12,634 nt of DNA from an uncultured Clostridia bacterium (lineage in GTDB: Bacteria > Bacillota > Clostridia > Oscillospirales > Acutalibacteraceae): assembly GCA_937884625.1 (NCBI GenBank), contig CALGCE010000182.1, positions 1 to 12,634 on the forward strand, in the 5' to 3' direction. A program made the translations under genes and the position numbers. Position 1 is the first letter of the stretch. Each line of letters starts with the position of its first letter. Below are positions 6,082-11,462 of the stretch, piece after piece. The notes beneath the pieces were generated by a model that worked only from the letters and a program-made list of their open reading frames with translations, made no database searches and had not been told where the DNA came from.

Positions 6082-6113
6082 TATTGTTTTATAATGTTTT
6101 TGGAGGGTGTTTT

Positions 6114-6614
6114 ATGGACGAGCGAGAACTTATCAAGAAGTACAGTGATGAACTGATGTCGGCTTACCGTATATCAAAGAAAAAATATGTAAATGCACAG
6201 TCAAACAGTGCCGAAATACCGAGTGGGCAAAACACGGGAGAGCTTACGGTAAACGTAACTACTTTAAGAGGATTATATCCCGTTGTAGGTGCAGTAGTCA
6301 CGATATTTAAGGGCAGTTACGACAATATGGAGGTAGTGCATACAGCCGTTACCGACGAAAGCGGACGCACACCGTCTTTCACACTTCCCACACCGCCGAA
6401 AAGTCTTTCTGAAAATGCAGGAGAGGTAGAACTGCCGTATGCACAGTACAACGTATCGGTAAAGTCGGACGGATACATAGAACAAGTTAATATGAATGTG
6501 CCCGTATTTCCCGGTGTAAAATCGGTACAAAGTGCAGACCTTGTTTTAATTTCTGCGGCGGGGAACGACAAGACTCCCAATATATACGATGAGTCTAACA
6601 GTTACGATTTATAA
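6114..6614 (+). CDS. SleC-propeptide-like protein (carboxypeptidase-regulatory-like fold), separately encoded
   Basis: A 166-residue protein with no signal peptide or membrane segment. Residues 1-40 are charged and probably flexible. About 42-146 read as a beta-sandwich of the carboxypeptidase-regulatory-like/Cna-B type: GELTVNVTTLRGLYPVVGAVVTIF, then TDESGRTPSFTLPTPP, then PYAQYNVSVKSDGYIEQ, then VFPGVKSVQSADLVLI. The same order (secondary strand, 'V.NA.V.IY'-like strand, 'ESG', 'LPAP', 'PYSQYIVEA.VDGYE') is what I recall from the N-terminal pre/propeptide of clostridial SleC, the cortex-lytic zymogen. The ATG at 6114 has GGAGGG (6102-6107) with a 6-nt spacer; the in-frame upstream ATG at 6084 has no such site. 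Its TAA (6612-6614) is followed in the same frame by the SleC-like gene, 15 nt later. It may hold the enzyme inactive or place it in the spore, in trans; this is inference. Confidence 0.75.
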   Translation: MDERELIKKYSDELMSAYRISKKKYVNAQSNSAEIPSGQNTGELTVNVTTLRGLYPVVGAVVTIFKGSYDNMEVVHTAVTDESGRTPSFTLPTPPKSLSENAGEVELPYAQYNVSVKSDGYIEQVNMNVPVFPGVKSVQSADLVLISAAGNDKTPNIYDESNSYDL

Positions 6615-6629
6615 GGGGAGGTTTTAAGT

Positions 6630-7991
6630 ATGCCCGAAGTCAATCTGCCCGTTATACCTGAAAACATAGTGGTGCATTTAGGTGCACCGAACGCTAATGC
6701 ACGAAACGTCACCGTGAGTTTTTCCGACTATGTGAAGAACGTGGCATCAAGCGAAATATATCCCACATGGCCCGAAAATGCCATAAGAGCAAATGTCTAT
6801 GCGATAATATCGTATGCACTTAACAGGGTGTATACAGAATACTACCGTTCAAGGGGATACGATTTTGATATAACGAATACCACTGCATTTGACCAAGCAT
6901 TTGTGGAGAATAGGGAAATATACGAAAATGTAAGCGATATAGTAGACGAAATTTTTAATAACTACGTAGTAAGACAAGGAAGTGTAGCACCGTATTTTAC
7001 GCAGTTTTGTAACGGTACCACGTCAAGGTGCAACGGACTTTCACAGTGGGGTACGGTATCTCTTGCAGAAAGCGGACTCGACCCATTGCAGATACTCCGC
7101 AATTATTACGGAGAAGATATAGATATAGTTATGAACGCACCCGTTCAAAACGTAGAGGAGTCATATCCCGGAGTTCCTTTAAGGAGAGGAGATACGGGAA
7201 ACGACGTAAAGGTAATACAGACCGAGTTAAACCGTATATCGAGGAACTATCCCGCCATACCGAAAATTGCAGAGGAAAACGGGATATTCGGTGTTGATAC
7301 CGAAAATGCGGTAAGGGAATTTCAAAGAATTTTTAATTTAAATGTTACAGGTCAGGTAGACAAATCTACATGGTACAGAATAAAACAGTATTATGCAGGG
7401 GTTAAAAGTCTTTCAGACCTTGTATCCGAGGGTATTACGATAGAAGAAGCACAACTGCCGTTTGTAAGACAGTTGTCACAGGGTATGCAGGGTCCTCAAA
7501 TACAGATACTTCAATACTATTTAAACGTAATAGCCTACTTTAATCCAAACCTTAACCTTTCTCCGCTTGACGGCGTTTTCGGACCTGCCACTACAACGGC
7601 TGTAAGGGAATTTCAGGCACTTTATGGTCTGCCTCAAACAGGCGTGGTAAACAATGCCACATGGATTAGACTTCGTGATGTATATGCTGAAACGGTAGCG
7701 TCATTGCCCGAAGGGTATTCGGGCGACCGTGCCAAACTCTATCCCGGATATTTTTTGACCGAGGGTGCGAGCGGTCAGGATGTCAGAGATTTACAAACGT
7801 ATCTTTCCTTAATCGGCAGATATTACCCTGAATTGCCCGAACTTCCGATAACAGGGTATTTCGGAAGTCAAACGGCGGACGCAGTAAGAACCTTTCAGTC
7901 GCTTTTCGGTCTGCCCGTAAACGGTGCGGTAGGACCCGTAACATGGTATACCATTGCAAACCAATATGATTTTTTAATACAAAATGCTTAA
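6630..7991 (+). CDS. sleC: SleC-like spore cortex-lytic enzyme: SpoIID-type domain plus three peptidoglycan-binding repeats
   Basis: Predicted to cleave spore-cortex glycan during germination as a lytic transglycosylase. Residues 11-19 (ENIVVHLGA) and the SpoIID-like domain at about 30-168 follow SleC closely: DYVKNVASSEIYPTWPENAIRANV (33-56) with Glu42 at the catalytic-Glu position, TNTTAFDQAF (82-91), and Cys127/Cys134 before GLSQWG...ILRNYYG at 136-161. Three PG_binding_1 repeats follow at about 184-251, 281-348 and 376-442, each with G..G..V..LQ..L, G.FG..T..AVR.FQ and a closing TW(Y/I). The SleC proteins I recall have one such repeat, so the binding region is enlarged. There is no signal peptide, as expected for an enzyme packed from the mother cell. 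GGGGAGG (6615-6621) lies 8 nt before the ATG. The start falls close to where SleC's propeptide would be cut off, so the protein resembles the mature enzyme only. Confidence 0.87.
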   Translation: MPEVNLPVIPENIVVHLGAPNANARNVTVSFSDYVKNVASSEIYPTWPENAIRANVYAIISYALNRVYTEYYRSRGYDFDITNTTAFDQAFVENREIYENVSDIVDEIFNNYVVRQGSVAPYFTQFCNGTTSRCNGLSQWGTVSLAESGLDPLQILRNYYGEDIDIVMNAPVQNVEESYPGVPLRRGDTGNDVKVIQTELNRISRNYPAIPKIAEENGIFGVDTENAVREFQRIFNLNVTGQVDKSTWYRIKQYYAGVKSLSDLVSEGITIEEAQLPFVRQLSQGMQGPQIQILQYYLNVIAYFNPNLNLSPLDGVFGPATTTAVREFQALYGLPQTGVVNNATWIRLRDVYAETVASLPEGYSGDRAKLYPGYFLTEGASGQDVRDLQTYLSLIGRYYPELPELPITGYFGSQTADAVRTFQSLFGLPVNGAVGPVTWYTIANQYDFLIQNA

Positions 7992-8002
7992 GTATTTTTA
8001 TA

Positions 8003-8050
8003 AAAATCTTCGCAATAATATTAATATATTGTTGCGGAGGTTTTATTTTT
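8003..8050 (+). terminator. Terminator-like hairpin that contains the gerA Shine-Dalgarno
   Basis: Arms 8003-8020 and 8027-8044 form an 18-bp stem (three G-U pairs, loop TTAATA), directly followed by T-rich sequence through 8050. The GGAGG ribosome-binding site of gerA (8036-8040) is inside the 3' arm. In RNA the hairpin could end sleC transcripts and hide the gerA ribosome-binding site in those that read through. The 7992-8002 stretch holds only a short palindrome (ATTTTTATAAAAAT). Confidence 0.65.
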
Positions 8051-9539
8051 GAGCGGACTTACTTCGGATTTTGAAAATATGAAACTCAGCGGAAATTTTA
8101 CGCTTGATAAATCAAAGTTTAAGGAAATATTTAAAAAAGATGACATTTTGCGTGAACGCTGTATTAAAACAGGTAAAGGTGTTAATGTTGCCCTCTTTTA
8201 TATGGACGGTATGGTAAATTCCGAAATTCTTAACGATTCTATTGTACGTCCGATAGTGTTGTCAAAGATAAGTGGAAAGGAAAACTTTAATGCAGAGTAT
8301 ATATCATCAAATGTGCTTTTTTCGAATGACGTGGGTATCAGCGATACCCTTGCTGATATGATAAGAGCGGTTTTATACGGCGATACAGTAGTAATAATAG
8401 AGGGTTGCACTTCGGCTCTTACGGTTAATACAAAAGGATTCAGGTCAAGGGGGATTAGTGAGCCTGCCGATGAGCGTGTTCTTCAAGGACCCAGAGAGGG
8501 CTTTGACGAGGTTGCAATGCTTAATATTGCAATGATCAGAAGAAAACTTTTAACCCCCGACCTTTGCGTAGAGATGATGAGGGTAGGCAGACGCACCGAA
8601 ACGATAGTATTCGTGTGTTATTTAGGCAGTCTTGCAGACGAATCTACGGTAGATGAACTCAAAAAAAGAATAAACAGGATAGATATTGACGGCATACTCG
8701 ACAGCAACTATATAGCCGAGCATATAAGAGACCACAAAAGTTCACTCTTTAAAACTACGGGGTCAACCGAAAGACCGGATATTGTCGCCGCAAGACTGCT
8801 TGAAGGCAGAATAGCGGTGGTAGTAGACGGCACCCCCGTAGTGCTTACCCTGCCGTATCTGTTTTCCGAGAATTTTCAGTCTGACGAGGATTACTATCTT
8901 AATTATATGGTATCAAGTGTTGGCAGAGTGCTTCGGTATTTATGCTTTTTTATAGCGGTAAGCGTACCTGCCGTTTTCGTGGCACTTACCACATTTCATA
9001 TGCAACTTTTACCGACAAATTTTGCTCTTTCTGTAATAAAGTTGCGTGGCGGAGTACCGATGCCGTCGGTAGTGGAATGTATAATTTTGATACTCGTCTT
9101 TGAGATACTAAAAGAAACGGGCGTTAGAATGCCACAAAGTTTGGGACATGCCCTTAGTATAGTAGGCGGTCTTGTAGTAGGTCAGGCGGCGGTGGAAGCG
9201 GGGATTATCAGTGCATCGATGCTTATTGCCGTGGCGTTAAGCGGTATAGCAGGACTTATGATACCAAGACTTAAAGGCGTTGTGTTCTATTTAAGACTTG
9301 TTTTGGTAATAGTAAGTTCTGTTTTCGGGCTTTTCGGCTATATTGCCGTATCTGCGGTGTTTGTTATCAGAATATTCAGTATAACATCTTTCGGTGTGGA
9401 TTATACGGTGTCGCTTAAAAATCCCGATATGCAACACCTGAAAGATACCGTATGGCGTGCACCGTGGACTTTTATGAGAAAAAGACCTGCCTTTAACAAA
9501 AATATCATCAGAAGCGGAGATGTGAAAAAACGGCAATGA
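8049..9539 (+). CDS. gerA: Spore germination protein, GerA family (receptor A subunit)
   Basis: A-subunit of a Ger-type germinant receptor, placed in the spore inner membrane, where A, B and C subunits together respond to nutrients. The 496 residues have the family layout: a soluble N-terminal domain (1-290) with the signature EPADERVLQGPREGFDE (138-154), then a membrane domain with segments near 296-316, 340-355, 366-386, 388-405 and 412-440. The most conserved stretch, FEILKETGVRMPQSLGHALS followed by IVGGLVVGQAAVEAGIIS, is at 351-388. The start is a TTG (8049) supported by GGAGG (8036-8040, 8-nt spacer); the first ATG (8079) has no such site. The ribosome-binding site is inside a hairpin, so translation may be low or regulated. 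The stop overlaps the gerC start (ATGA), implying translational coupling. Which ger paralogue it is cannot be told. Confidence 0.95.
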   Translation: MSGLTSDFENMKLSGNFTLDKSKFKEIFKKDDILRERCIKTGKGVNVALFYMDGMVNSEILNDSIVRPIVLSKISGKENFNAEYISSNVLFSNDVGISDTLADMIRAVLYGDTVVIIEGCTSALTVNTKGFRSRGISEPADERVLQGPREGFDEVAMLNIAMIRRKLLTPDLCVEMMRVGRRTETIVFVCYLGSLADESTVDELKKRINRIDIDGILDSNYIAEHIRDHKSSLFKTTGSTERPDIVAARLLEGRIAVVVDGTPVVLTLPYLFSENFQSDEDYYLNYMVSSVGRVLRYLCFFIAVSVPAVFVALTTFHMQLLPTNFALSVIKLRGGVPMPSVVECIILILVFEILKETGVRMPQSLGHALSIVGGLVVGQAAVEAGIISASMLIAVALSGIAGLMIPRLKGVVFYLRLVLVIVSSVFGLFGYIAVSAVFVIRIFSITSFGVDYTVSLKNPDMQHLKDTVWRAPWTFMRKRPAFNKNIIRSGDVKKRQ

Positions 9540-10516
9540 AAGGACGCTTTTTGATAATTATTATTTGTTTGCTTACACTTTGCGGTTGCAGTGATTACGC
9601 AGAGAGCAACAGTCAGTATATGGTATCTGCAATAGGATTTGACAGCGACGGCGAAAATATTATTGCGAGTACACAAACTGTCATAATAGAAAGTAACGGC
9701 GAAGAAAAACAGGAAACAAAGGTGTTTACGGCAAAGGGGAAAACACCTGCACAGGCACTTTTTAATATTTCGGGGTACCTTTCAAAGTCACTTTTATTCG
9801 ACCACTGCGGTGTCGTGGCAATAGGGAAAGGCATATCAAAGGAAACGTTAGGCAAAATATTTGATTACAGTAACGATGAAAAAAACCTTAATTTAGGCGT
9901 GTACTTTGTTTGTACCGACAGTGCCGAAGAACTCTTAAATGCAGACCCTGTGTCCTTTGTGGCATCAGGTTATGATATTATGGGAATAATTGAAAAAGCA
10001 AGTGACGAAACAGGTATACTCTATCAAAACCGGTTTTATGAAATAAAGGCACTCGAAGCAAAAAAAGGAAAGGTTTTTTCTCTGCCCTTTTTCGAGTGCA
10101 AAGAAGACGGCATTAAAATGAACGGCAGAAATATTTACCGTGACAGAGAATTTGTTACAAGTATAGACGAAAATGAGAGTTATATATATTCTGTGATTTG
10201 CAATTCAAATAAAGGCGGAAAAATCATTCTTGACGGACAAAAAGCAAAGATAAATAAAATGCACACAAGTTTTAAATACAATTATGAAAACGAAACGGTT
10301 AATATAAATCTTAAAACGGTATTTTCGTTTGAATATAAGAGTAAGAATTTTAAAAAAACACTCCAAAAAGATGCAAATGATTTTATTCGAAAAATGTCGG
10401 TTTTATCTAACAAAGACGTATTTGGATTTGACGACAGAATATATATCCGTAACAGTTCGCTTTATGAGAGCATAAAGGACGGTTACAGTGTGAAAACAGA
10501 ATATACAGCAAAGTAG
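9536..10516 (+). CDS. gerC: Spore germination lipoprotein, Ger(x)C family
   Basis: C-subunit of the germinant receptor: a lipoprotein held on the outer face of the spore inner membrane. The 326 residues begin with a lipoprotein signal, positive MKGR, a hydrophobic run and lipobox L-C-G-C with the lipidated Cys18. After it come YMVSAIGFD (28-36), a typical Ger(x)C opening, and FTAKGKTPAQALFNIS...LLFDHCGVVAIGKGISKE (64-102), which matches the family pattern '.G.s...A...ls....k.l..sH.kvivig...a..'. The product is shorter than many family members (about 370-400). The ATG overlaps the gerA stop; the nearest GGAG is 16 nt upstream, so expression probably depends on coupling. The next gene follows after 7 nt. 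Confidence 0.9.
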   Translation: MKGRFLIIIICLLTLCGCSDYAESNSQYMVSAIGFDSDGENIIASTQTVIIESNGEEKQETKVFTAKGKTPAQALFNISGYLSKSLLFDHCGVVAIGKGISKETLGKIFDYSNDEKNLNLGVYFVCTDSAEELLNADPVSFVASGYDIMGIIEKASDETGILYQNRFYEIKALEAKKGKVFSLPFFECKEDGIKMNGRNIYRDREFVTSIDENESYIYSVICNSNKGGKIILDGQKAKINKMHTSFKYNYENETVNINLKTVFSFEYKSKNFKKTLQKDANDFIRKMSVLSNKDVFGFDDRIYIRNSSLYESIKDGYSVKTEYTAK

Positions 10517-10523
10517 GGAAAGT

Positions 10524-11462
10524 ATGAAAGAAAGAGCAAATTATAATATTCATTTTGTAATGATTTCTGCAATGTTCGTGCTCTCAAACGCCGTAATAAC
10601 GGTGCCTTTTAAGGGTGCAGATAAAAAGAATTTTTTAAGTTTTGCAATCGCAACCGCACTAGGGGCGGTGTTTCTTTATTTCACTTCATACTTGATTAAT
10701 TATATGTATGATACAAAACTACTTTCAAAAAATCCTTTGGCGGTTAAAGTTTTTTATGTTTTAAGCAGTGCGGTACTTGTGTTTTTAGCCGTTTTATGCT
10801 TTAAAGATTATACCGATTTTGTTTCTTTCAGAATGTTGCCTCAAACTCCGAGATTAATAGTATCTTTTATATTTGCATTCTGCATTTTATGGACGTCGGT
10901 ACAAAAAGACAGTGTTATACTCAAATTTTCCCTGTTTTCTTTTGTTATAACTGCTATAATAATCATTATCCTTTTTGTTATATCCGTACCGAGAATGAAA
11001 CTTGAAAATATCGTTTTACTTCAATTCCCCAATATAAAAGATACCGCCCGTCAAACGGGAAAATACTTTTTAAATGTTTATGTTACACTGTTGCCCATAC
11101 TTTTATACAGAAAATGTCTTTATAAAGATATGAAAAATAAATATATATCGTCAGGACTGCTTGTAGGTGCCGTACTTTTGGCGGTATGTTTGCTTAACAG
11201 TCTGTTGCTTTTCGGTGCAGACGTAGCCTGTAATATGGATTTCCCTTATGCCGATGCGATAAGCACCGTAACGGTAGGAGAACTGTTTACACGTATGGAC
11301 GGATTTTCGTACTTCGTGTTTTTTGCAAGTACCGTCATTAAAATAACGGTTTTAATAAGCGGTGTAAAAATCCTTTTTTCAAGACTTGGAATTAAGAACA
11401 AAAAGGCAGTTGCAACGGCTTGTACGGTATTGATTTTTATAGGTGATTGTTTGGTAAAATAA
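10524..11462 (+). CDS. gerB: Germination receptor permease subunit, GerB (GerAB/ArcD/ProY) family
   Basis: B-subunit of the germinant receptor, related to amino-acid permeases and in related receptors the likely germinant-binding part. The 312 residues are mostly hydrophobic, with about nine segments near 10-28, 37-60, 73-93, 109-126, 134-154, 182-196, 210-231, 262-281 and 293-309. The polar stretch RMLPQTPR (103-110) and the late motif FTRMDGFSYFVFFASTVIKI (255-274) match GerB proteins (usual form: '.R.e.l....w......k'). It is shorter than B. subtilis GerAB (~365), mainly in loops and at the C terminus, where a tenth segment is missing or very short. It begins 7 nt after gerC (weak GGGAAAG site), giving the order A-C-B rather than the B. 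subtilis A-B-C. No clear terminator follows; the next gene's promoter starts 6 nt after the stop. Confidence 0.88.
   Translation: MKERANYNIHFVMISAMFVLSNAVITVPFKGADKKNFLSFAIATALGAVFLYFTSYLINYMYDTKLLSKNPLAVKVFYVLSSAVLVFLAVLCFKDYTDFVSFRMLPQTPRLIVSFIFAFCILWTSVQKDSVILKFSLFSFVITAIIIIILFVISVPRMKLENIVLLQFPNIKDTARQTGKYFLNVYVTLLPILLYRKCLYKDMKNKYISSGLLVGAVLLAVCLLNSLLLFGADVACNMDFPYADAISTVTVGELFTRMDGFSYFVFFASTVIKITVLISGVKILFSRLGIKNKKAVATACTVLIFIGDCLVK

Follow-up and report, generated by a model that had tools for sequence, protein, structure and literature searches.

A two-gene relative of the spore enzyme SleC without the PRO stretch in a lineage of Clostridia

In the published clostridial route of cortex lysis, pro-SleC is activated proteolytically by Csp. 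The 12,634-nucleotide contig CALGCE010000182.1 of an uncultured Clostridia bacterium of the Acutalibacteraceae (assembly GCA_937884625.1, forward strand), referred to below as the window, encodes the parts of a SleC-type enzyme separately. In the window, two adjacent open reading frames (ORFs), ORF1 (6114–6614) and ORF2 (6630–7991), share one reading frame, and the spacer between them consists of the TAA stop at 6612–6614 and five sense codons. A preliminary description made from the sequence had read these ORFs as a split SleC, with a GGGGAGG located 8 nt upstream of the ATG of ORF2, and its coordinates were confirmed. On balance, the pair appeared to be a lineage-wide SleC variant in which the pre-domain is a gene of its own, the PRO stretch is missing, a proteolytic lock is likely absent and ORF1 likely serves the enzyme in trans. 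The features of the pair were as follows.

6102–6107, plus strand: ribosome-binding-like (Shine–Dalgarno-like) sequence GGAGGG before ORF1, read from the sequence
6114–6614, plus strand: ORF1, ATG start, 166 aa, free-standing homologue of the SleC pre-domain
6615–6621, plus strand: ribosome-binding-like GGGGAGG of ORF2, in the 15-nt gap, 8 nt before the ATG
6630–7991, plus strand: ORF2, ATG start, 453 aa, SleC-type enzyme without pre and pro segments, predicted to be cortex-lytic
6651–7133, plus strand: SpoIID-like catalytic domain of ORF2, approximately residues 8–168
7182–7967, plus strand: three PG_binding_1 repeats of ORF2 (PF01471), in three stretches

Homology between ORF1 and the N-terminal portion of SleC was established by hhalign (99.5%) and by a match to 9h68, the pre-pro form of C. 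difficile SleC in the Protein Data Bank (PDB), with an E-value of 1.5e-15; the case in which ORF1 is unrelated to this part of SleC, named in the preliminary description as a refutation, did not occur. By itself, the ORF1 sequence matched 9h68 weakly (E 6.8e-4) and no Pfam family above the cut-off. The predicted layout comprised an N-terminal helix (residues 3–29), a transthyretin-like beta-sandwich (approximately residues 40–149) and a C-terminal tail with one strand; the transthyretin-like fold is that of the SleC pre-domain, but it is encoded here by a separate gene. As a pattern search for the N-terminal helix motif matched only 32/109 ORF1 relatives, the motif was not considered a general feature of ORF1. 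The C-terminal Leu was invariant across the 15 closest aligned relatives. The tail up to residue 162 aligned with SleC up to residue 129, where PRO starts, and the span of ORF1 corresponded to the SleC PRE domain plus roughly ten initial residues of PRO. ORF1 had been called propeptide-like; its homology to the N-terminal part of SleC stood, but the match was to the PRE domain and included little of PRO. ORF1 as the propeptide was rejected, as the alignments and the structure comparison placed it at the pre-domain. Cleavage of C. difficile SleC near residue 130, as given in the preliminary description, was not confirmed.

ORF2, whose N-terminus reads MPEVNLPVIPENIVVH, matched the C. difficile SleC chain 9h68 over residues 5–262 (E 2e-74), in agreement with its earlier likening to the processed SleC enzyme. 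Like SleC, it carried, ahead of PG_binding_1, a SpoIID-like domain in which a Glu and a pair of Cys are conserved; Glu42 (NVASSEIYP, codon 6753–6755), Cys127 and Cys134 were invariant in 21 aligned relatives. Three repeats were counted in ORF2, compared with one in one-repeat SleC, and their limits (approximately 7182–7397, 7473–7688 and 7755–7967) were drawn by eye from the alignment. From its sequence, ORF2 appears to be a SleC relative by descent and is predicted to cut the spore cortex. No obvious signal peptide was found in ORF1 or ORF2 by sequence inspection. As homologues of each occurred as separate proteins, 21 for ORF1 (131–184 aa) and at least 8,000 scored for ORF2 (450–458 aa among the best 120), both looked like real genes.

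In one-repeat fused SleC, the pre-domain is linked to the enzyme by a conserved stretch, ...I.I.PNTL.GNYPPKIPE...KPLPPP.SG.VVLPEPVIPE.IVVH, which is called PRO here. The pattern [YF]xxK.[PA]E..K was used to search for it and was found in 31/31 one-repeat SleCs, 0/8 multi-repeat fused proteins and 0/109 split pairs, with a background of 2 matches in 988,537 residues. When the sequences of ORF1 and ORF2 in the window were read, the stretch was absent from both. PRO lies past the YabG site and ahead of the enzyme, from which we infer that it is the inhibitory propeptide that Csp removes; the consulted parts of two papers describe an N-terminal SleC propeptide whose removal is aided by Csp (PMC3567191, PMC6021603). 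The window thus encodes no single polypeptide of pre, pro and enzyme segments, since a stop, a second Shine–Dalgarno-like sequence and a start intervene, and no conserved PRO stretch lies between pre-domain and enzyme. A propeptide simply acting in trans, as the preliminary description had suggested, did not fit, because the conserved remainder of PRO is missing from both proteins. Without it, the enzyme is probably produced in a form that has no proteolytic lock.

Among the relatives, taken as the best 80 of 581 confirmed genome-contig loci, the split pair was found in 78, namely, 77 by the first ORF1 profile and L062 by an improved one. The remaining two loci (L013 and L034) start at a contig edge or within 336 bp of one. 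From ORF1 to the start codon lying closest to the enzyme, the gap ranged from −11 to +40 nt in 77 loci, apart from a single gap of 108 nt. The record titles of the split loci named Oscillospiraceae, Ruminococcaceae, Ruminococcus, Agathobaculum, Butyricicoccus and Clostridia, with many animal gut samples. An extra short ORF matching peptidoglycan-binding repeats followed the enzyme gene in several split loci (L083 2955–3470, L085 917–1486, L091 2909–3484 and L094 843–1442).

The proteases were surveyed in a sample of 393 genomes belonging to the same class, with E 1e-40 as the threshold for an enzyme match; a completeness of at least 90 was requested in the draw, but as the genomes are listed without their values, an isolated absence may reflect a gap. 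An enzyme match was obtained in 63 genomes. One-repeat fused SleC was present in 29 genomes (31 genes), the split pair in 31 (30 split-only genomes plus G163, where a one-repeat SleC is found in addition), and a multi-repeat fused protein in eight, all but G182 with a one-repeat SleC as well. Three genomes with partial enzyme matches only (G121, G310 and G412, the last with Csp) were excluded from the comparison of split and one-repeat forms, and L118 was removed as a duplicate of L122. The Csp prodomain PF18425 was found in 29/393 genomes: 27 of the 29 one-repeat genomes, G412 and G392. It was found in none of the 30 split-only genomes and not in G182 (0/1); 14 control genomes gave no match, and the 29 matching genomes served as the positive control. 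A full-length Csp profile built from 11 proteins was searched against 60 genomes (11 with one-repeat SleC) and added G253, which brought Csp to 28/29 one-repeat genomes. With this profile, Csp was found in 0/48 split genomes (the 30 split-only and 18 further ones), where the best match was partial and reached 56 bits, the level of a generic subtilase, compared with best matches of at least 500 bits in the positives. PF18425 was also absent from 28/28 genomes of split loci, which represent 28 of the 80 loci and include the rows nearest to the window on the enzyme tree (L001 and L006); 18 of these genomes were also in the full-length-profile run, and G021 was shared with the survey. The earlier hint of Csp independence agreed with the absence of Csp from the 30 split-only genomes, which are those of relatives. 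A full-length sleC with csp elsewhere in the genome, which had been named as evidence to the contrary, was found in one of the 31 sampled split genomes (G163) and not in the rest.

Further genes were counted in 60 genomes (the 30 split-only, G163, G182 and 28 one-repeat) with profiles that all matched the Bacillus subtilis control: YabG (PF05582), GerA (PF03323), YpeB (PF14620), SleB/CwlJ (PF07486) and SpoIVA (PF09547). YabG was found in 0/30 split-only and 18/28 one-repeat genomes and in neither G163 nor G182. GerA was present in 30/30 and 26/28, and SpoIVA in 29/30 and 28/28, respectively. The split-only genomes therefore look like those of GerA-bearing spore-formers without either known SleC-processing protease.

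Several other arrangements of these genes were observed in the survey. Besides its split pair, G163 carries a compact stretch (C1:247639–252225, L122), perhaps acquired as a unit, in which two Csp-type genes accompany a divergent one-repeat SleC. Single ORFs of 1,080 or 1,067 aa in L121 (821–4060, G174) and L147 (595–3795, G242) comprise, in order, a Csp-type protease with PF18425 near the start, a SleC pre-domain, the PRO stretch and the enzyme, so protease and substrate are in one polypeptide. At least eight Csp-type protease domains were found on contigs C45, C47, C65 and C7 of G391, several in ORFs of 1,296–1,793 aa. The 1.5 Mb genome G225 holds a one-repeat SleC, YabG and a long-branched multi-repeat fused protein.

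A quick maximum-likelihood tree was built from 92 enzyme domains, including 20 of the 80 genome-contig loci; the second and third trees were built without L161, and none of the trees included L164 or L166. One-repeat SleC formed one group (SH-aLRT 99), and seven of the eight multi-repeat fused proteins lay between it and the split forms, the eighth (L161) being long-branched. Split versus fused required two changes on the 92-row tree. Without L161, the unconstrained quick tree still required two, and grouping all split forms on one side improved the score by 45 log units (p-AU 0.94); a single fission or a single fusion is enough. Rooting with a SpoIID-family outgroup failed, as the outgroup was scattered on very long branches, and the enzyme tree is unrooted. 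A tentative possibility is that the two-gene, three-repeat form is the older one: the zymogen would have arisen once by fusion of partner and enzyme, with a Csp-cut PRO inserted at the joint, and the split lineage would keep a protease-free two-protein lock wired to GerA.

The favoured account of the pair builds on the homologies, the conserved adjacency, the missing PRO and the lack of Csp and YabG in the split-only genomes sampled, which all have GerA, and spores of this lineage likely wake without the Csp protease switch. ORF1 and ORF2 would be produced together during sporulation, and ORF1 would bind ORF2 non-covalently and fold, deliver or hold the enzyme in the cortex layer. Until GerA signalling, the enzyme would probably be restrained by dryness, location or ORF1 itself. 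Once GerA-type receptors sense a germinant, the pre-made enzyme would be freed or permitted to act without Csp cleavage, either through release of calcium dipicolinate (Ca-DPA) and rehydration or by detachment from ORF1. The role of ORF1 in trans is probably that of a targeting or assembly partner, or of a clamp. According to the consulted parts of the sources, a C. difficile yabG mutant packages uncleaved pre-pro SleC, which taurocholate still activates (PMC6464247), and in C. perfringens pro-SleC, with pre already removed, stays a zymogen until germination (PMC3567191). Therefore, a role of the pre-domain in assembly or targeting is more likely than one as a lock, and the simplest view of free ORF1 is that of a partner dedicated to ORF2.

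Some observations weigh against this account. ORF1–ORF2 binding, ORF2 activity and the location in the spore are predictions. The joined AlphaFold model (pLDDT 89, pTM 0.56) differed from 9h68 by an rmsd of 23 Å over 289 residues; as it did not reproduce the domain arrangement of SleC and docking is unproved, no conclusion was drawn from it. G225 was the sole one-repeat SleC genome without a Csp match, and 10/28 one-repeat genomes also lacked YabG. In 21/30 split-only genomes, the Csp profile gave weak and incomplete matches to subtilases, and another protease, of unknown kind, could still act on the split form. YpeB was above the cut-off in 6/30 split-only genomes (7/28 one-repeat), and a SleB/CwlJ-type Hydrolase_2 was found in 12/30 (25/28 one-repeat), the other 18 split-only genomes having none. 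Furthermore, one event on the tree can account for split versus fused, so the correlations with Csp and YabG amount largely to a single phylogenetic contrast; Fisher values, which take the genomes to be independent although they are not, were disregarded.

Downstream of ORF2, a hairpin and three germinant receptor genes were found in the window.

8003–8044, plus strand: 19-bp hairpin with a T-rich tail, between ORF2 and gerA
8049–9539, plus strand: gerA-type germinant receptor subunit, TTG start (PF03323, E 4.7e-153)
9536–10516, plus strand: gerC-type receptor lipoprotein (PF25198, E 8.5e-24)
10524–11462, plus strand: gerB-type spore permease (PF03845, E 3.1e-12)

This linkage was not general, as a match to the GerA of the window lay within the fetched flanks in 12/80 loci. 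The GGAGG preceding gerA sits in the 3' arm of the hairpin, and the region 7985–8062 had a fold z of −6.46; terminator-like sites in the window numbered 3, compared with 2.5 expected. The hairpin may be a terminator or a translation control. At the other end of the window, an ORF at 11–1156 was judged by eye to resemble the C-terminal part of a serine recombinase, and after it, at 1526–1876, comes a 23S rRNA intervening-sequence-type four-helix protein (PF05635), both within 11–1876.

A single stop between the two parts in the window would also result if an ordinary fused sleC had acquired a nonsense mutation in this strain alone. With 78 of 80 distinct related loci split, this is refuted and retains next to no credibility; moreover, three repeats and the lack of PRO set the split form apart, and ORF2 relatives measure approximately 455 aa throughout the best 120. 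Uninterrupted relatives, the other sign of such a mutation named beforehand, were thus not what was found. The shared frame and short gap had also suggested stop read-through giving a low level of fused proenzyme. However, the frames were different in 69/109 split pairs of relatives and equal in 40/109, which refutes read-through as a conserved mechanism, and the identical frame in the window was not more than chance. A strong Shine–Dalgarno-like sequence stands ahead of ORF2, the junction showed no unusual RNA structure (z = +0.79), and any fused product would remain without PRO, so that read-through is highly improbable.

More weight was given to ORF1 as the lock itself, a trans-acting inhibitor on the ORF2 active site that germination signals remove. 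The conserved neighbourhood of the two genes, the homology of ORF1 to a zymogen segment and the invariant C-terminal Leu of the 15 closest relatives, in a tail that aligns up to the PRO start, are in its favour. However, in C. difficile YabG strips the pre-domain before dormancy and activation still awaits the germinant, as the consulted part of PMC6464247 describes; ORF1 also lacks the conserved PRO stretch, and the joined model shows no SleC-like docking. A lock of this kind is therefore considered possible but doubtful. It is unlikely, although less so than read-through, that the pair remodels cortex or cell wall at sporulation and is not a germination enzyme. SpoIID, whose type of catalytic domain ORF2 shares, acts in engulfment, and a germination role of the pair is itself a deduction from sequence. 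Nevertheless, the nearest relative of known structure is SleC, a germination enzyme, gerA follows ORF2 directly, and a GerA-like ORF lies 60 nt or less downstream in L019, L022, L045 and L046. Further SpoIID-family proteins were found in 8/8 split-only genomes searched, and the cortex-lytic job is left open in the 18/30 split-only genomes without a SleB/CwlJ-type hydrolase.

To our knowledge, little is known about the germination of commensal spores, and the pair offers a defined two-protein system for studying it. In this Clostridia lineage, with gut members of Oscillospiraceae, Ruminococcus and Butyricicoccus type, a SleC relative occurs without the segment thought to be cut by protease, and both proteases that process SleC are absent from the split-only genomes sampled. 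That the pre-domain exists as a free protein also bears on its unexplained role within SleC. No report of a split SleC, and no paper for structure 9h68, was found among the papers listed in searches of the open-licence PMC literature; subscription papers lie outside those searches.

Compared with SleC of C. difficile and C. perfringens, the pre-domain is homologous to ORF1, and the SpoIID-like domain and PG_binding_1 repeat are homologous to ORF2. In SleC, all parts lie on a single chain that includes a PRO stretch and one repeat, whereas the window pair is two genes with no PRO and three repeats. Csp was found in 28/29 and YabG in 18/28 of the SleC genomes, whereas neither was found in the 30 split-only genomes sampled; in C. 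difficile, YabG removes the PRE domain before dormancy, according to the consulted part of PMC6464247. The pair thus departs from SleC in two tested features, the single chain and PRO, and the sampled relatives lack the third, Csp. The multi-repeat fused SleC-like proteins (L099, L102, L105, L132, L137, L139, L140 and L161) share with the pair a pre-domain, 2–5 PG_binding_1 repeats and no PRO motif, but they are fused, and seven of their eight genomes also hold a one-repeat SleC. In L102, L105, L132, L137, L139 and L140 (G203, G088, G348, G343, G391 and G363), the PRO-less protein stands beside one-repeat SleC and Csp. The SleB–YpeB system of Bacillus consists of a pre-made cortex-lytic enzyme and a separately encoded partner, with no zymogen, and SleB is held until GerA signalling. 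The consulted part of one source states that YpeB may keep SleB inactive (PMC13393411). No sequence relation to the pair was seen: neither Hydrolase_2 in ORF2 nor YpeB, with its PepSY domains, in ORF1 was found in Pfam at E 0.1. The likeness is in the working only, in which the window pair would resemble SleB–YpeB and not proSleC with CspB.
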